Shown here one piece after another: positions 12,325-23,492 of a DNA stretch of 64,000 nucleotides. Source of the DNA: an uncultured Gammaproteobacteria bacterium (GTDB taxonomy: Bacteria; Pseudomonadota; Gammaproteobacteria; Pseudomonadales; Pseudohongiellaceae); assembly GCA_913061515.1 (NCBI GenBank), contig CAJXSF010000002.1:1-64000 (forward strand). Reading direction: 5' to 3'. Below the pieces are notes generated by a model. It had not been told where the DNA came from. It worked only from the letters and a program-made list of their open reading frames with translations, and ran no database searches. Both the position numbers and the translations under genes were made by a program. The first letter of the stretch is position 1, and every line of letters starts with the position of its first letter.

Positions 12325-12501
12325 GTGTATTTAACTCGCTCCACGCTCCTTCTTATTATGTGTAGCTACATCGTTTTCGTTGCGAGTGTCGATTGGCTTG
12401 CACAGCCTACCGGTGCTTGGTACAGACCATTTATCATCGGCCTATTCGTCATTATCATTGCTGCCGTTTGCCACAGGGAACAGAATTCAGATGACCTTTG
12501 A
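12325..12501 (+). CDS. cbrX: CbrX-like small membrane protein upstream of cbrA
   Basis: 58 codons from a GTG at 12325 to TGA at 12499-12501, with a strong ribosome site (AGAGGA, six bases before the start). The product has two hydrophobic stretches: LTRSTLLLIMCSYIVFVASV and, after WLAQPTGAWYR, FIIGLFVIIIAAVC. Its end overlaps the cbrA ATG by 11 bases, so cbrA translation is probably coupled. Pseudomonas carries a similar tiny membrane-protein gene, cbrX, overlapping cbrA. The position, overlap and topology match; sequence identity was not tested. It may regulate or assemble CbrA. It is easily missed because of its length and GTG start. Confidence 0.75.
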   Translation: MYLTRSTLLLIMCSYIVFVASVDWLAQPTGAWYRPFIIGLFVIIIAAVCHREQNSDDL

Positions 12502-15448
12502 TCTAAGCGGCCTTTTCATTATGGGTGTGATCTATATGGTCGTACTCTTTGGCGTTGCCTATGCCACCGACAAGGGCTGGATACCCCAGAAGGTCACCCG
12601 GCACCCCATTGTCTATGTGCTTGCGCTCGGCGTGTTTGCCAGTGTGTGGTCCTATTTTTCAACGACAGCGAATGCCTATCGCGATGGTTTTGGCTACCTA
12701 GCCCCTTTCATAGGCATTTCACTCGCTTTTCTGTTCTCGCCCCTCATGCTGCGCCCAATTTTGGATATTACGCGCAGTTATCAATTGAGTTCCTTGGCCG
12801 ATCTTTTGGCATTTCGTTACCGCAGCCCGATGGCGGGAACACTAACGACGATTGTAATGCTGATCGGGGTAACTCCTTTGCTATCGCTGCAGATTCAAGC
12901 GGTCGCCAGCAGCGTTGCCATTATGGCACCAGAGGTTTCTCAGACTAGACTCGCGCTCGCTTTCTGTGCCCTTATCACCTTATTCGCGATTTTCTTTGGC
13001 ACGGGAAGAGGCGCAGGACGCGAGAAACACGAAGGCTTAGTGATGGCGATTGCATTCGAGTCATTGGTTAAATTGATTGCCATGCTCTGCCTAGGGGGGT
13101 TCGCCGTTTACCAAGGCTTTGGCGGTTTTTCTGGCATCGATGAATGGTTACAAACACAACCCGAGCTCATTGCTAGCATCAAGCAACCAGACTCACCTGG
13201 CTCCTTCCATATTACGGCCATCTTGTTCTTTACGGCAGCGGTGGCCAGCCCTCATATGTTCTATATGATTTTCAATGAGAACAAAGACCCCAAGGCTTTG
13301 ACACTTGCCAGCTGGGCGCTGCCTTTGTATTTTTTGCTATTGAGCTTGCCCGTCTTCCCTATTCTTTGGGCAGGCCTAAAAATAGGCTCTACGGCGCCAC
13401 TGGAATACTACCCCGTTAGCCTCGGCGCCGAGTACGGTTCCGGCTTTATGACCATGATTGGTTTTCTTGGCGGGCTCTCCGCCGCTAGTGGCCTGATTAT
13501 CGTGATCACCTTGGCACTGTCTAATATGTGCCTCAATCATCTTATACTGCCGCTTTATCAACCCAATGCACGCAACGACATTTACCGTTGGCTACTCTGG
13601 CGACGCCGCGCACTGATCGCTGCATTGATCTGGATTGGTTTCCTATTTTATTTTCTGCCAGAGGATAAATTCAGTGTCCGCGCAATTGGCAACGTCTCTT
13701 ATATCGCCAGTTTGCAATTCCTCCCAAGCATCATCGCCCTTCTCTATTGGCCTAAGGGCAATAAAAAAGGCTTTATTGCCGGGCTGCTGATCGGCGTCCT
13801 GATCTGGTTATTATTCCTCATGCTGCCAGTGCTAACAGGGTTTAGCCTGCCTTCGTTCGAAAACATCAGCACTCGCGAAATCGTTGCCATGTCGCTTGTC
13901 TGCAACATCATTTTGTTTGTGGGGATTTCTTTGTGGACGCGCACCTCGGCCGAGGAACGCGCCTCTGCAGATGTCTGCGCTCTGGACACCATTCGCCGCC
14001 GCAACCGTACGGGGCTTGTCGCCAAGTCTCCGGAAGATTTCATTGCCAAGCTCACCAAGCCATTGGGAGCCAGAACCGCCACGCGAGAAGTGTTGCAGGC
14101 AATGCGAGACCTGAGCATTCACAAGGATGAGAAACGCCCACACGCCATGCGCCTGTTACGTGGTCGCTTAGAGGCGAACCTGTCTGGCTTATTAGGCCCT
14201 TCGATTGCGCATGACCTCATCGATCGCTTTCTGCCATTCACGATCGAATCCGAACATGGCAGCACCGATGTGGATGTGATCGAAAGTCGCATCGAAGCCT
14301 ACCGAAGCAATCTCTCTGGCATGGCTGAAGACTTAGATAATTTACGTCGCTACCATCGCCAAGTGCTTCTAGAGTTGCCACTTGGGGTATGTTCACTCGG
14401 CGAACAGAACCAGATCGTCATGTGGAACCATGCGATGGAAGAGTTAACCGGCATCCCTAGCCAAGAGGTCTTAGGCTCACAGCTAATTGAAATTGCCGAG
14501 CCCTGGGCCTCATTAATTCACGAGTTCACGGTGGGCGATACAGCCCATGCGCACAAGCGCGCTGTGCAAGTGAAGAGCAAACGCCGAGTCATCAGCTTGC
14601 ACAAGGCCATTATTGAAAAATCAGCCGCCCATAAGATCAAACAAGACGGTGTGGTGATATTGCTAGAAGATTTAACCGATACCGAGCTACTCGAAGAAGA
14701 GCTTACCCATAGTGAGCGCCTCGCCTCAATTGGGCGTCTCGCAGCTGGGGTCGCGCACGAGATTGGCAACCCGATCACAGGTATCGCTTGTCTGGCGCAA
14801 AATATTCGCGACGAAACTAATAATGACGAACTGCGCTCAATGGCACGACAGATTATTGAACAAACCGATCGCACCTCACGAATTGTGCAATCCTTGGTAA
14901 ATTTTGCCCACAGCGGCAGCAACAAAGTCGACCACAACAGTGAAATCGTCACGATCGAAGAGTGCGTCAACGAAGCTATTGCCTTAATATCTCTAGATAA
15001 AAAACGCAAAGAAATCGAGTATGTGGTGAACTGCAAGCCTGGATTGCAGGTACTTGGCGACGCGCAGCGATTGCTGCAAGTATTGGTCAATCTGCTTAAT
15101 AACGCTCACGATGCGAGCCCAAGTGACAGCAAAATCACGCTATCGTCGAAGCTTGTGTCGGGATCTGTCCAGATCTCCGTGACCGACGAGGGCAGCGGAA
15201 TCCCAGAGCAAATTCGTGAACAAATCTTCGACCCATTCTTTACGACAAAGGAACCGGGAGAAGGCACAGGCCTAGGGCTTTCCTTGGTCTACAGCATTGT
15301 TGAAAACCTGAACGGGCATATTGATATAATCAGTGCATCGAACAGGAAAGAGAACCCAGGGACACGAGTAATTCTGACTTTTCCCTGCTATGATGGTTCG
15401 AATATAGAGAGCGCAGCGCTTGAACAAGCGAGCCAATCTAGAACGTAA
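12491..15448 (+). CDS. cbrA: CbrA-type sensor histidine kinase with SLC5 transporter domain
   Basis: 985 residues. The N-terminal half is a polytopic sodium/solute-symporter-like domain (about 13 helices, roughly residues 5-490). It is followed by a linker, a PAS domain ([20 protein letters not shown], about 640-740), a HisKA domain with phospho-acceptor H756 in GVAHEIGNP, and a HATPase domain ([28 protein letters not shown]). In Pseudomonas CbrA transports or senses histidine and drives CbrB in carbon/nitrogen control. The start at 12491 (MTFDLSGLF) is preferred over an open frame extending to 12380, because the upstream stretch overlaps cbrX. It overlaps cbrX by 11 bases; cbrB follows 34 bases later. 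Confidence 0.95.
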
Positions 15449-15482
15449 CCTGTTGAATTAGTTATCAATCTGCTTGAGTAAC

Positions 15483-16871
15483 ATGATGACAGCGCAGAAC
15501 AAAGTATTAGTAGTAGAAGATGAACCAGTCATTCGTACTGCCCTTAAACGCCTCTTAGAACGGCATGAGTATTCCGTTCAAGAAGCGGGTAGCGTGAAAG
15601 AGGCAATCGAAAGTCATCAAATGGATGAATTCGATATCGTCATTAGTGACCTGCGCCTACCAGGGGCGCCTGGCACAGACCTTATCAAAGCGACAAAAAC
15701 CCCTGTTCTGATCATGACCAGCTACTCTAGCATGCGCTCGGCAATCGACTCGATGAAGATGGGCGCAGTGGACTATATCTCCAAGCCGTTCGAGCATGAA
15801 GAAATGCTTGAGACCGTGGCACGCATCGTCGAAGAAAGCGCCAGTCGCAAAGTGGTGGCAAGCAAACCGACGCCCCCGCCTGAACCTCCCGTTTATGGCA
15901 TGATCGGCAGTTGCCCGCAGATGATGGAATTATTCCGTCGCATCCGCAAAGTCGCTCTCACCAACTCTACTGTGCTGATTAACGGCGAGTCAGGAACCGG
16001 CAAAGAATTAGTGGCGCGTGCGATACACAAACTAAGTGACCGCAACGAAGTCGAAATGATTTCAGTTAACTGCGCCGCTATTCCTGAAAACCTCATTGAA
16101 TCCGAGCTTTTCGGCCATGAAAAAGGCGCATTTACTGGCGCCACGGCGAACCGCACAGGCTTAGTCGAGGCCGCCAGCGGCAGCACCCTCTTTCTAGACG
16201 AGATCGGCGAGCTCCCCTTGGAGGCGCAGGCGCGCCTATTGCGTGTTCTACAAGAAAACGAAATTCGCAAAGTGGGCTCAGTACAGTCAAAGAAAGTTGA
16301 TGTCAGGCTCGTAGTCGCTACTCACAGAGACCTTAAACAGCTGGTGATAGACGGCGATTTCCGCGAAGACCTGTATTACCGCATTAATGTGATGACCCTT
16401 ATCATCCCACCTCTGAAAGAGCGTGGTAACGATATCTTGGAGCTTGCCGATGCAATCCTCGAGCGCACCTGCAAGCGTTTGAAGTCACCTATGCTTAAGT
16501 TCAGCTCTGAGGCGACACAAGCGATTGCCTCATACCCATGGCCTGGAAACGTGCGAGAGCTCGAAAACGCTATCGAACGTGCTGTAGTGCTAGCAGAGAC
16601 CGAAGAGATTGGGGCTGAATTGCTCGCGATCGATACCAGTCTGCGCGCGCAGCTGCGCCCAATAAGTGAACGCACGGCCGCCAATAACACCATGACACAA
16701 GAAGACCCCGCAGAGGAGTTATCGCTTGAGGATTATTTCCAGCGTTTTGTGCTAGAACACCAAGACCAAATGAATGAAACTCAACTCGCCCGAAAGCTCG
16801 GCATCAGCCGAAAGTGCCTCTGGGAACGACGCCAGCGTTTCGGCCTACCTCGCAAGAAAAAACAAGCCTAA
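15483..16871 (+). CDS. cbrB: CbrB sigma-54-dependent response regulator
   Basis: About 462 residues. Receiver domain with acidic pocket (VVEDEP), phosphorylatable D56 in IVISDLRLPG and K in ISKPFEHEEM; then an AAA+ domain with GESGTGKE, the sigma-54 contact loop GAFTGA, and Walker B LFLDEIGE; then a Fis-type HTH (NETQLARKLGISRKCLWERR). The receiver closely follows Pseudomonas CbrB (DLRLPGAPGT, MKMGAVDYI). It activates sigma-54 promoters, in Pseudomonas chiefly that of the small RNA CrcZ, and such a promoter lies 240 bases downstream here. A TTG at 15474 is in frame; ATG at 15483 or 15486 is more likely. A hairpin follows the stop. Confidence 0.95.
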   Translation: MMTAQNKVLVVEDEPVIRTALKRLLERHEYSVQEAGSVKEAIESHQMDEFDIVISDLRLPGAPGTDLIKATKTPVLIMTSYSSMRSAIDSMKMGAVDYISKPFEHEEMLETVARIVEESASRKVVASKPTPPPEPPVYGMIGSCPQMMELFRRIRKVALTNSTVLINGESGTGKELVARAIHKLSDRNEVEMISVNCAAIPENLIESELFGHEKGAFTGATANRTGLVEAASGSTLFLDEIGELPLEAQARLLRVLQENEIRKVGSVQSKKVDVRLVVATHRDLKQLVIDGDFREDLYYRINVMTLIIPPLKERGNDILELADAILERTCKRLKSPMLKFSSEATQAIASYPWPGNVRELENAIERAVVLAETEEIGAELLAIDTSLRAQLRPISERTAANNTMTQEDPAEELSLEDYFQRFVLEHQDQMNETQLARKLGISRKCLWERRQRFGLPRKKKQA

Positions 16872-16925: not shown

Positions 16926-16992
16926 TTCCCCGCGCGCATTTTTCCTACAAGTTTGTGACAGAAATCACAGACAATTCGCAACAGGCTTAATT

Positions 16993-17039
16993 TGTTACTG
17001 ATACCCATCTACCCACCCAAATAGAGATATTAGGTAACA
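16993..17039 (+). promoter_or_regulatory. Inverted CbrB-like half-sites upstream of the sigma-54 promoter
   Basis: TGTTAC at 16993-16998 and its inverted copy GTAACA at 17034-17039 match the half-sites reported for CbrB at Pseudomonas crcZ (from memory). They lie at about -147 and -101 from the predicted start, the normal place for an enhancer. Spacing is 35 bases (centres 41 apart, close to four helical turns), wider than the spacing I recall in Pseudomonas. Confidence 0.6.
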
Positions 17040-17113
17040 CAGTACCAAATAATCTTGTCTGGCCAACCCCCTAAAAACAAGTAAGTCTTTGTTTTATATA
17101 GACTCTCAATAAC

Positions 17114-17129
17114 TGGCACAGTTCCTGCT
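17114..17129 (+). promoter_or_regulatory. Sigma-54 promoter of the CrcZ-like RNA
   Basis: TGGCACAGTTCCTGCT: the GG (17115-17116) and GC (17127-17128) have the required 12-base register of -24/-12 elements. Predicted start is near 17139-17140, exactly where an A-rich repeat tract begins. There is no ORF close downstream, so the promoter drives a non-coding RNA or a long leader. Confidence 0.85.
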
Positions 17130-17138
17130 CTATACTAA

Positions 17139-17395
17139 GCACAATAACAATAAATAATAACAACGACCGTAAATAATAATAAAAATAGCGCTATGTAATT
17201 GGTGCAAAAAACAATAAGAATAATGAAGTAGATTGCCAGTAATATGAGAACGTGTTTGTTGTCTGACTGCTAATACTGTTTCATAAAATAAAAATGCTTT
17301 GCGGTGCTGTATTTGGTGCCTGATTAGTCTAATAATAATAACAAAACTAAATTACCTTCCTTGCGGGGGGGCTGTACTCGCCCCCCAAAGCATTT
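17139..17395 (+). ncRNA. crcZ: CrcZ-like Hfq/Crc-sequestering small RNA
   Basis: The predicted RNA starts at about 17139 with GCACAATAACAATAAATAAT and carries at least four blocks of AAYAAYAA-type motifs: 17141-17164, 17171-17186, 17206-17227 and 17330-17345, plus an A-rich patch near 17283-17294. Such motifs bind the distal face of Hfq and titrate the Hfq/Crc translation repressor in Pseudomonas. The location, between cbrB and pcnB behind a sigma-54 promoter, is that of Pseudomonas crcZ. A 10-bp closing stem (17292-17301 with 17386-17395) and a G7/C6 hairpin (17365-17386) are possible 3' structures. The exact end is uncertain since no T-run follows. No protein frame with a ribosome site was found here. 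Confidence 0.8.
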
Positions 17396-17542
17396 CCTCC
17401 TGCTAATTTCCCTTATTTCAGTGTATTATCTCGTCCCGTTCCCATTGTATTTAGCAATACGTAATAGTGTATTCAGGCAGATATGGGATTATGCAAGCTA
17501 GCATTTCACATTATGCTTGCAGTTAATGGATTTTAAAACTCG

Positions 17543-19027
17543 ATGTTAAGAAAGATAAGCAAAGCGCTATTCGGCAAACGCTCTAAGGCAAACCCTACTG
17601 AGCAAGCAGAAAACGCCGCTCCAAAACAACGCCCGCACTCAAACGATAAGCGTGGCCGCGCAAGTATCTCCGATCTCGACCTGTCGGGTGCGGATATCAT
17701 TGAGCGCGACGAGCATTGCATTTCACGACGCGACATCTCCCCCAATGCCCTAAAAGTGCTCTACCGATTGAACGATGCGGGCTATCACGCCTTCCTCGTA
17801 GGTGGCGGCGTGCGCGACCTCCTCTTGGGCGATAAGCCTAAAGATTTCGACATATCGACTAACGCAACACCAGAGCAAATTAAGCAATTGTTTCGCAACG
17901 CCATGATCATTGGCAGACGCTTCAAGATTATTCACGTGCGCTTTGGCCGCGAAATAATTGAAGTTACAACGTTCCGAGCGCCTCATGAGCCAGAGAACGA
18001 GTTCAAAGAAAATACCACCAACCGCAGCATCAAAGGCCTAGATTCGGCGCACTCAAGCGCTGGCCTAATTTTGCGCGACAATGTCTACGGCAACATCAAC
18101 GAAGACGCCCTGCGCAGAGACTTCACAGCCAACGCTCTGTACTACACTACCGACGGCTTCCGTATCATCGATTTTGCGCAAGGCCTTCACGATATCGAAA
18201 ACCGTCTCTTACGAATGATCGGAGACCCTGCGACTCGATATAGAGAAGACCCCGTGCGCCTACTGCGCGCCGTACGCTTTGCTGCGAAGCTCGGTTTTGA
18301 TATTGAAAAGAACACACGAGCACCAATGGACGAAATGGCGCCCCTATTGGCGTCGATATCCTCCGCGCGCCTTTTTGACGAATCTCTTAAATTGTTGACT
18401 GGCGGAAAAGCTGAGAAGACCTTTGCCCTAATACGCAAATTTAAAGTCGGGCAAATACTATTTCCCGCAACGATGGCAGCAACCAAGGATCCAGAGAGCG
18501 TCGAAAGCAAACTACTAAACTTAGCGATGCGCAATACTGACAGGCGTCTTGCCCAAGGCAAGTCTGTGACCCCAGCGTTTCTTTATGCCGCCATCTTATG
18601 GGCGCCATTGCAACAAACGCTTAGAAAATACGCTGCTGGCAAAACTGTCACGATTCCCGAACATCATGAAGCCGCGAATCAAGTGATTATTAAGCAGATT
18701 CAAGTCACAGCTATACCAAAACGTTTCTCCATTGCCACCAAAGAGATTTGGGAGCAACAACTGCGTCTACAAACCCGTACCAAACGGGCAGCTGAGTCAG
18801 CCTTTGCCCACCCAAGGTTTCGCGCAGCGTACGACTTCTTGTTATTAAGAGAGGAAGCAGGCGAGGATCTAGACGGTATTGGGCAATGGTGGACTGACTT
18901 CCAAAATGTTGATAAAAATCAGCAAGAGCACATGATTAACAGTCTAGGCAAAGGGGCCGCGACCAAACGACGTCGACGCCGCAAACCAGCCAAAAAGCCA
19001 AACACGGGATCAGAGGACAACGCGTGA
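17543..19027 (+). CDS. pcnB: Poly(A) polymerase I
   Basis: 494 residues. Adds poly(A) tails to RNA 3' ends, marking them for decay. The nucleotidyltransferase motif LVGGGVRDLLLG starts at about residue 85 and the catalytic DFD is at 101-103 (KPKDFDISTNATPEQ); RRDFTANALYY and the RxxEDPVRLLRAVRF segment follow. This length and the basic tail (KRRRRRKPAKK) separate it from tRNA CCA-adding enzymes. It follows the CrcZ-like RNA as in Pseudomonas. The next gene starts with a GTG overlapping its stop by four bases (GTGA), leaving no room for folK, which often follows pcnB in related bacteria. Confidence 0.95.
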   Translation: MLRKISKALFGKRSKANPTEQAENAAPKQRPHSNDKRGRASISDLDLSGADIIERDEHCISRRDISPNALKVLYRLNDAGYHAFLVGGGVRDLLLGDKPKDFDISTNATPEQIKQLFRNAMIIGRRFKIIHVRFGREIIEVTTFRAPHEPENEFKENTTNRSIKGLDSAHSSAGLILRDNVYGNINEDALRRDFTANALYYTTDGFRIIDFAQGLHDIENRLLRMIGDPATRYREDPVRLLRAVRFAAKLGFDIEKNTRAPMDEMAPLLASISSARLFDESLKLLTGGKAEKTFALIRKFKVGQILFPATMAATKDPESVESKLLNLAMRNTDRRLAQGKSVTPAFLYAAILWAPLQQTLRKYAAGKTVTIPEHHEAANQVIIKQIQVTAIPKRFSIATKEIWEQQLRLQTRTKRAAESAFAHPRFRAAYDFLLLREEAGEDLDGIGQWWTDFQNVDKNQQEHMINSLGKGAATKRRRRRKPAKKPNTGSEDNA

Positions 19028-21414: not shown

Positions 21415-21554
21415 CGCGAATAATGCCAGCAGTATTTCTCTGCAATTTTACTCACTGCTCAAAACCTGCTAAAACCTTTAGATAACGACTTAATATCGCG
21501 ATAGTGGCCTTACCTATCGCAACCACAAGTAATAACCAACAAAAGGACTTAGCG

Positions 21555-23492
21555 ATGCCTGCCAATCGTGTTTACCCAGTTAGTGATGCAATCGCCGCCA
21601 ATAGCTTAATTAGCAAAGAAGACTACCAACAGCTTTATCAACAATCGCTTCATGAACCCGAGCAATTTTGGACCAAAAAAGCCAAAGAGTTCCTTGATTG
21701 GATAGAACCATGGCAGCAATTGCGCAGCGGCGATTTTAAAGATGCCTCCAACCAATGGTTTGTCGGGGGCAAGCTTAATGTTTGCGTCAATTGTGTCGAT
21801 CGCCACCTGCCCCATCGTGCGCAACAAACGGCACTCATCTGGGAAGGAGACGACCCTAAAGACAGCGAACATATTAGCTATCAAACCTTGTTTGAGAAGA
21901 CCTGCAAAATGGCCAATGCACTGCGTGCGCGCGGCGTAAAGAAAGGCGACAGAATCAGCATTTATATGCCAATGATTCCCGAAGCTTGTTATGCGATGTT
22001 GGCTTGCGCGCGCATTGGCGCCGTTCACTCGATCGTATTTGGTGGTTTCTCGCCCGAGGCTATCAAAGACAGAATATTGGATTCGGATTGCCGAGTAGTT
22101 ATCACCGCTGACCAAGGTTTGCGCGGGGGCAAACACATTCCCTTGAAACGCAATGTCGATAAAGCTTTAGACCATTGCCCTGACGTTCATACTGTATTGG
22201 TCGTAAAACATACTGGGGCGGATATCGCCTGGCACGACGATCGCGATGTGTATTATCACGAGATCATCGATGAGGTTAGCGCCCATTGTGAGCCTGAAGT
22301 GATGGACGCTGAAGACCCACTATTTATTCTCTACACCTCTGGGTCTACGGGCAAACCAAAAGGTGTTTTACATACTTCTGCCGGCTACTTGCTGATGGCT
22401 GCAATGACGCATCGATACGTTTTCGATTATCAAGAAGGAGACGTTTACTGGTGCACTGCCGATGTCGGTTGGGTAACCGGACACAGCTATATCGTCTACG
22501 GCCCGCTAGCCAATGGTGCCACGACACTTGTTTTTGAAGGTGTACCGACCTATCCCGATGCCTCTAGATTCTGGCAGGTCATCGATAAACATCAAGTAAA
22601 TTCATTCTACACAGCTCCCACAGCTATTCGTGCACTCATGTCTGCCGGCGATGAGCCTGTAAAAAGCACCTCCCGCCAATCACTACGTATTCTTGGTTCT
22701 GTGGGCGAGCCGATTAATCCAGAAGCATGGCAATGGTATTACGATGTTGTCGGCGAAGGACGTTGCCCAATCGTGGATACCTGGTGGCAAACCGAAACCG
22801 GCAGCATCATGATTACACCACTGCCTGGGGTTACCGACTTGAAACCTGGCTCAGCGACATTGCCTTTCTTTGGTGTGCAACCAGCATTACTCGATGCCAA
22901 TGGCGAAGAATTAAAAGGACCGGCAACTGGCAACCTAGTCCTTTGCAGCAGCTGGCCAAGCCAAATTCGTTCAGTCTATGGCGACCACCAGCGATGTATC
23001 GACACTTATTTCAAGACCTACCCCGGTTACTATTTCACCGGCGACAGTGCTCGTCGTGATGCCGATGGCTATTACTGGGTGACGGGGCGCGTTGACGATG
23101 TCATTAACGTATCAGGGCACCGACTTGGCACGGCCGAGATTGAAAGCGCCCTAGTGTTGCACCCCAAAGTTGCTGAGGCCGCGGTAGTCGGGTTTCCGCA
23201 TGACATCAAGGGGCAAGCAGTTTACGCCTACGTCACACTAATGTTAGATGAGCAGGAGAGCGAAGATCTAAGACGCAATCTATTGGCGTTTGTCGCAGAA
23301 GAGATCGGGGCTTTTGCCAGACCAGAGATAATCCAGTTTGCACCGGGCCTCCCTAAGACTCGCTCGGGTAAAATTATGCGTCGGATTCTAAGAAAAATTG
23401 CGGCAAACGAGCTAGAAAATATGGGTGATACGACAACTCTGGCAGACCCATCGGTTGTCGATCAGCTGATTGAAAATAGAGTCAATCGCTAA
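21555..23492 (+). CDS. acs: Acetyl-CoA synthetase
   Basis: 645 residues. Makes acetyl-CoA from acetate, ATP and CoA by an acetyl-AMP intermediate. The AMP-binding motif [15 protein letters not shown] and the [11 protein letters not shown] motif are present, and the catalytic, acetylation-controlled lysine is K606 in [14 protein letters not shown]. The ATG at 21555 ([11 protein letters not shown]) has AAAGGAC eight bases upstream and matches usual Acs N-termini; the open frame back to a GTG at 21504 is not coding. acs lies in the same place in Pseudomonas chromosomes beyond panC. The thiolase gene follows closely, so acetate assimilation and acetoacetyl-CoA metabolism may be co-expressed. Confidence 0.97.

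Follow-up and report, generated by a model that had tools for sequence, protein, structure and literature searches.

In Pseudomonas, the small RNA CrcZ sequesters Hfq and thereby relieves the repression of sugar and amino-acid use. Hfq is the RNA-binding repressor in P. aeruginosa, with CrcZ as its decoy and Crc as co-repressor, and deletion of crc merely about halves repression (PMC8266614). Crc belongs to the exonuclease/endonuclease/phosphatase family, having lost catalytic residues, and the substitution R140E abolishes its function in P. aeruginosa (PMC6422490). The CbrB subsites, TGTTAC and GTAACA, were defined by mutation in P. putida (PMC6296734). Both CbrAB and CrcZ have been called exclusive to the Pseudomonadaceae (PMC8871633, PMC6296734). 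Our literature search found no report of either outside this family in open-licence papers; a report elsewhere is possible.

Here we describe a locus in a 64,000-nucleotide stretch (G000:C2:1-64000, hereafter the window) of a 3.23 Mb draft genome, which is 98% complete, with about 2% missing. The best explanation of the locus, and in our judgement a probable one, is a crcZ orthologue that is driven by CbrB and sigma-54 and would titrate Hfq directly, without Crc. The orthology to crcZ is well supported by position, promoter and motif, all of them read from the DNA.

The cbrA-cbrB-pcnB locus and its promoter

The frames inspected in the window follow the order dksA-gluQ-cbrA-cbrB-(RNA)-pcnB-kinase-panB-panC-acs, which we take to be close to the order in Pseudomonas. 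The RNA thus has the position of CrcZ, between cbrB and pcnB, in a gap of 671 bases that houses the -24/-12 element and the A-rich RNA. The features of the locus are:

12491..15448, + strand: cbrA, sensor kinase with a long N-terminal part, then PAS, HisKA and HATPase
15474..16871, + strand: cbrB, response regulator with receiver and sigma-54 activation domain
16993..16998, + strand: TGTTAC, CbrB forward-type half-site, kept in 15 of 15 aligned family members
17034..17039, + strand: GTAACA, CbrB reverse-type half-site, 41 bp from the first half-site
17114..17129, + strand: putative sigma-54 promoter -24/-12, TGGCACAGTTCCTGCT (TGGCAC-N6-TGCT; GG and GC 10 bases apart)
17140..17393, + strand: CrcZ-like small RNA with RF01675 match and ARN blocks; start inferred from the promoter, 3' end uncertain
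17543..19027, + strand: pcnB, poly(A) polymerase, reaching the NCBIfam PcnB cut-off

The longest frame of cbrA begins with a TTG at 12380, and 12491 is the ATG where the conserved part begins. An SLC5-like membrane part forms the N-terminal region of the known CbrA. The CbrA of the window is 37-70% identical over about 980 amino acids to CbrA from other genera and families, and its CbrB is 54-65% identical to the CbrB adjoining crcZ in other families. Next to pcnB there is accordingly a cbrA-cbrB pair of the known type, in which a kinase with a long N-terminal part, PAS and HisKA is followed by an NtrC-type regulator.

The sigma-54 element, the upstream TGTTAC and GTAACA and the RpoN encoded in the genome would together make up a CbrB-dependent promoter. 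The geometry of the half-sites is constant in all 15 family members, with 41 bp between them and 79-80 bp to the -24 element; in several other families the spacings are 21 and 53-54 bp, and 80 or 89 bp to the promoter. Ten bases past the -24/-12 element, at 17140, lies CACAATAACAATAAATAATAACAAC, and the promoter position predicts a +1 at about 17140. An earlier reading of the sequence without any database search (the sequence-only reading) had placed the -24/-12 element at 17114-17129, the start at 17139 and pcnB directly after the RNA. The element is a good sigma-54 element, the predicted start agrees and pcnB follows at 17543. Its promoter was drawn too short, as the region reaches up to the CbrB-type half-sites at 16993 and 17034.

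Match to the Rfam CrcZ model

The CrcZ model (Rfam: RF01675), which the sequence-only reading had suggested running on the region, aligns end to end (model 1-398) with 17147-17423 at 33.7 bits. With an E-value of 3.2e-7 in the gap and 3.7e-7 genome-wide, this full-length alignment is significant at the scale of the genome and is the sole match in 3.23 Mb. A curated-threshold Rfam scan of the window returned nothing, the gathering cut-off of RF01675 being 95 bits, and since 33.7 bits falls short of it we class the RNA as an orthologous CrcZ-like RNA and not as a member of RF01675. On the curated-threshold scan by itself, the RNA would have been discarded. The earlier suspicion that models built from Pseudomonas might miss the RNA is therefore right at the curated cut-off and does not fully hold below it, where the RNA is found in full length at E about 3e-7.

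A blind search with RF01675 matched 20 of 57 relatives and, in an order-wide sample, 59 of 294 genomes, with no match in 14 controls. Nearly all fetched matches are located immediately ahead of pcnB; where the contig extends far enough, cbrB precedes them. Because the RNA model is blind to protein genes, such adjacency is not to be expected by chance.

Motifs, fold and ends of the RNA

The motif AAYAAYAA occurs ten times (overlapping) in 17140-17400; 2000 dinucleotide shuffles average 0.22 occurrences and never reach ten. Elsewhere in the 64 kb there are four occurrences on the + strand and eight on the - strand. The motifs form six AAN/ARN blocks, at 17143, 17156, 17172, 17207, 17287 and 17331, and their predicted mean unpaired probability is 0.80-0.96 against 0.54 for the whole RNA. 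There are thus several AANAANAA/ARN motifs, predicted to be single-stranded, which the distal face of Hfq could bind. The main elements within and behind the RNA are:

17143..17185, + strand: 5' cluster of Hfq-type AAN blocks (17140-17185 is 91% identical in the genus, 79% in the family)
17207..17223, + strand: middle AAN block, AAAAACAATAAGAATAA
17331..17344, + strand: 3' AAN block, AATAATAATAACAA
17354..17397, + strand: conserved 3' element, ACCTTCCTTGC-G7-loop-C6-AAAGCATTTCC, a hairpin without T-run

U makes up 48% of the third bases of AAN in the window's family, compared to 23% in Pseudomonas-type CrcZ. This U-rich version still fits A-R-N because the third base is free. Up to the end of the hairpin the RNA is about 255-260 nt long, against the 398 positions of the Pseudomonas CrcZ model. 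No long or conserved reading frame was found in 17140-17400, where the overlapping ORFs have merely 25 to 46 amino acids and all start from TTG. Repeated AAYAAYAA blocks after the start, the lack of a protein frame, a shorter RNA than Pseudomonas CrcZ and more U-containing motifs had all been described from the letters alone, and every one of these descriptions is borne out by the counts given here.

The strong conserved G/C hairpin lies at about 17365-17387. No T-run stands behind it, which leaves the position of the 3' end uncertain and gives no assurance that the RNA has a discrete end. Most hairpin pairs are invariant across the family and hence give little covariation support, and the fold energy is mildly better than that of shuffles (z -1.8). 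Right after the hairpin, at 17420-17430 of the window, there is an GTGTATTAT element which is kept across the family and is perhaps the -10 of a pcnB promoter.

Conservation within the family

We aligned 15 cbrB-pcnB gaps from the window's family and calculated the pairwise identity, a comparison that the sequence-only reading had proposed. Upstream of the promoter region the identity is 15%, compared to 77% in the half-sites (16992-17042), 48% in the spacer and 84% in the -24/-12 element. In the RNA it is 79% in the 5' ARN cluster, 54% in the middle and 86% in the 3' ARN block with the hairpin. The stretch right after the hairpin reaches 68-81%, and 17436-17530, just ahead of pcnB, 36%. The A-rich blocks and the promoter element are therefore kept while the flanks diverge.

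The pattern TGGCAY-N6-TGC-N(5-30)-AAYAAYAA matches 30 of the 36 family genomes, mostly at the cbrB-pcnB locus, and read backwards it has one match across all 36. The second match of the pattern in the window's genome is an isolated AACAACAA elsewhere, so that crcZ looks single copy there. By model matches and inspection, the RNA is present in 30 of the 36 genomes and missing from four, all of genus g2, and two were assigned to neither group. These four genomes (L296, L300, L301, L303) have kept cbrB and pcnB, and the gap between them carries neither a sigma-54 element nor ARN blocks. In genus g2 crcZ appears to have been lost, which makes the RNA dispensable in some lineages.

Hfq is present and no Crc was found

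The genome encodes a canonical Hfq of 91 amino acids (Pfam: PF17209, 100.9 bits). By profile, residues, tree and pyrE-rph locus, no true Crc was found in the window's genome (98% complete) or in the sampled family genomes. The exonuclease III family has one protein in the window's genome, in which every tested catalytic position is intact. The catalytically dead Crcs group as a single clade (support 100/100) in a tree of 50 proteins, and the exonuclease III of the window's genome falls outside of this clade. Lys139, Arg140 and Arg141 are invariant in the dead Crcs; the exonuclease III of the window's genome reads Asp-Asp at 139/140.

The dead-Crc profile matched in 35 of the 36 family genomes, with one ExoIII-family protein per genome and two in genus g4. 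In 28 of these genomes the proteins were read position by position, and all of them retain the complete catalytic set; the remaining seven family genomes match the profile only with scores typical of canonical exonuclease. Where a dead crc is present it sits by pyrE and rph. In all 12 family genomes checked (the window's genome and 11 others), these two genes directly adjoin each other and leave no space for a further gene. A dead ExoIII homologue at the pyrE-rph locus with K139-R140-R141 is hence not found in the window's genome, and the lone exonuclease III, a candidate for Crc by similarity, was ruled out by catalytic residues, tree and locus. The earlier proposal that the RNA soaks up Hfq/Crc is therefore not supported as it was put, and of the two partners whose lack the sequence-only reading had named as a refutation, Hfq is present and Crc was not found. 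The RNA is most likely a sponge for Hfq without Crc.

The same searches were sensitive enough to detect dead Crcs in more than 20 further families of the order. Dead Crcs occur on both sides of the CbrA-CbrB-PcnB tree, which makes a loss in the window's family the simpler reading, although this tree gives the family no firm place. The RNA without a dead Crc match occurs in family f17 (G051) as well.

Besides these proteins, there are intact exonucleases with Crc-like features in other genomes. In L263 and L266 (G097 and G056 of f22, on the Alcanivorax side), the gene between pyrE and rph combines intact exonuclease III residues with an RKRR RNA patch, and could possibly be an intermediate or a replacement of Crc. 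Intact exonucleases away from pyrE-rph carry the RKRR RNA-contact motif of Crc in L072 (G231), L130 (G148), L279 (G047) and L123 (G024); G231 and G047 have a separate dead Crc in addition. The f22 enzyme at the crc locus and the RKRR exonucleases offer a starting point for tracing the change of a DNA repair enzyme into an RNA-binding co-repressor.

Distribution across the order

The arrangement of cbrB, TGGCAY-N6-TGC promoter, ARN blocks and pcnB is found in the families f2, f13, f14, f17, f20, f21, f22, f24, f32, f36, f40 and f42, with cbrA ahead of cbrB in those outside families wherever the stretch reached. P. fildesensis clusters with f21, whose RNAs score above 300 bits; this family is the Pseudomonadaceae. 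Named genera with the layout are Dasania, Gilvimarinus gilvus (CrcZ model 36.3 bits), Seongchinamella sediminis (28.8 bits) and Vreelandella lutescens. The cbrA-cbrB-pcnB order and ARN blocks are also present in Alloalcanivorax balearicus, which has no strict -24/-12 match. The CbrA-alignment scan of named genomes used generic kinase motifs and yielded seven full-length CbrA relatives and one partial one. As the same locus occurs in many other families, this carbon-control switch, which goes unlisted by gene callers, is probably widespread.

Several variants of the locus were observed. In L108 and L109 (f8, genomes of 6-7 Mb) and L116 (f38), a CrcZ-like RNA with a TGGCAC promoter lies right before pcnB with no cbrB upstream, and in L109 a different gene occupies the usual place of cbrB. 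The cbrB-pcnB gaps of L154 (Dasania) and L156 (Seongchinamella) hold two tandem sets of ARN blocks that look like a duplicated CrcZ unit, each set in L156 being followed by a GGATGGGGAAG..CTTCCCC hairpin. In L016 (G048:C160:7911-7993) there is a second RNA of the CrcZ type, possibly a CrcY analogue, which has a TGGCAC promoter of its own and lies away from cbrB. There is also a sub-threshold PrrF RNA match in Gilvimarinus gilvus (L155:1339-1535), with 38.8 bits against a cut-off of 90.

Proposed mechanism and alternative explanations

CbrA would sense the carbon or nitrogen state and activate CbrB, which, bound to TGTTAC/GTAACA and together with RpoN, would fire the -24/-12 promoter at 17114. 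The six single-stranded AAN/ARN blocks of the resulting A-rich RNA of about 260 nt may then bind the distal face of Hfq hexamers. Once abundant, the RNA would draw Hfq off the ribosome binding sites of catabolic mRNAs, so that their translation resumes. We infer CbrB binding, transcription, Hfq binding and the release of repression from the work on Pseudomonas. Because the co-repressor Crc appears to be absent from the window's family, the sponge would act there on Hfq alone. We judge Crc to be unneeded because in P. aeruginosa it is Hfq that represses and CrcZ that decoys Hfq, and repression is about halved on loss of crc (PMC8266614). The acs leader (21525-21555), near the locus, was the single candidate considered as an Hfq target and was rejected, as the AGUAAUAACCAACAAAAGG upstream of its AUG is suggestive but unconserved among relatives.

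It is unlikely that the CrcZ orthologue is still paired with a Crc activity, provided by the intact exonuclease III doubling as Crc. This enzyme is the closest Crc homologue found in the genome, it branches near Crc and is 44% identical to Pseudomonas-type Crc, and some related intact exonucleases (G231, G148, G024) bear the RKRR patch that Crc uses for holding RNA. In f22 genomes, the crc locus between pyrE and rph is occupied by an intact enzyme. However, the exonuclease III of the window's genome has Asp-Asp for Lys-Arg at Crc positions 139/140, where R140E kills Crc function (PMC6422490). Moreover, several family genomes that keep crcZ possess only a different, canonical exonuclease III, and the conservation of the enzyme is sufficiently explained by its being the sole ExoIII.

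We regard as quite improbable that the conserved region acts chiefly as a long 5' leader of pcnB, with the sigma-54 promoter reading through the hairpin and the Hfq sites controlling pcnB. The hairpin without T-run, the 68-81% identity just past it and the presence of pcnB directly downstream at nearly every locus would all fit such a leader. Yet CrcZ of Pseudomonas is a separate RNA in the same place (PMC8871633), the distance from the promoter to the aligned pcnB start varies widely across families (about 300 to 915 bp), 17436-17530 ahead of pcnB is poorly conserved (36%), and genus g2 retains pcnB without the element. Simple ARN repeats come about easily, and intergenic DNA is rich in A and T, but that the motifs are a chance or compositional product of an AT-rich spacer is hardly credible: no dinucleotide shuffle out of 2000 has as many motifs, the motifs, the promoter and the half-sites are kept where their neighbours have diverged, and the reversed pattern has one match in 36 genomes.

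Going beyond the single locus with its Hfq-titrating crcZ orthologue, we lean towards the view that the whole family, perhaps also f17, runs CbrAB-CrcZ Crc-free, and that the Hfq/Crc system thought to be confined to Pseudomonadaceae is order-wide. A Crc-free family offers a natural test of the purpose of CrcZ, which could be the titration of Hfq or of the Hfq/Crc complex. Should CbrB still drive the RNA there, and should the RNA still bind Hfq, then Hfq would suffice as the target and Crc would act as a booster.

Comparison with known systems

The RNA of the window resembles CrcZ of Pseudomonas and Azotobacter (Rfam: RF01675; also CrcY and CrcX) in its place between cbrB and pcnB, its sigma-54 promoter with CbrB half-sites, its several AAN/ARN blocks, its 3' G/C hairpin and its full-length match to the model. 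Unlike these RNAs of about 400 nt, it has about 260 nt to the hairpin, scores below the Rfam cut-off, has mostly U and not C as the N of AAN, lacks a T-run, has no partner Crc and appears to be single copy.

By analogy with the Hfq/Crc repression of Pseudomonas (PMC4063720, PMC6422490, PMC8266614), Hfq is presumed to be the repressor and the sponge RNA its antagonist. In contrast to that system, there is no dead Crc at pyrE-rph in the window's genome, and its exonuclease III is intact and lacks the Arg140 contact. The RNAs RsmY and RsmZ of GacSA differ in regulator, motif and target protein and serve as an analogy only. In both cases a two-component system would drive a repeat-bearing RNA which titrates a translational repressor (compared in PMC8871633).
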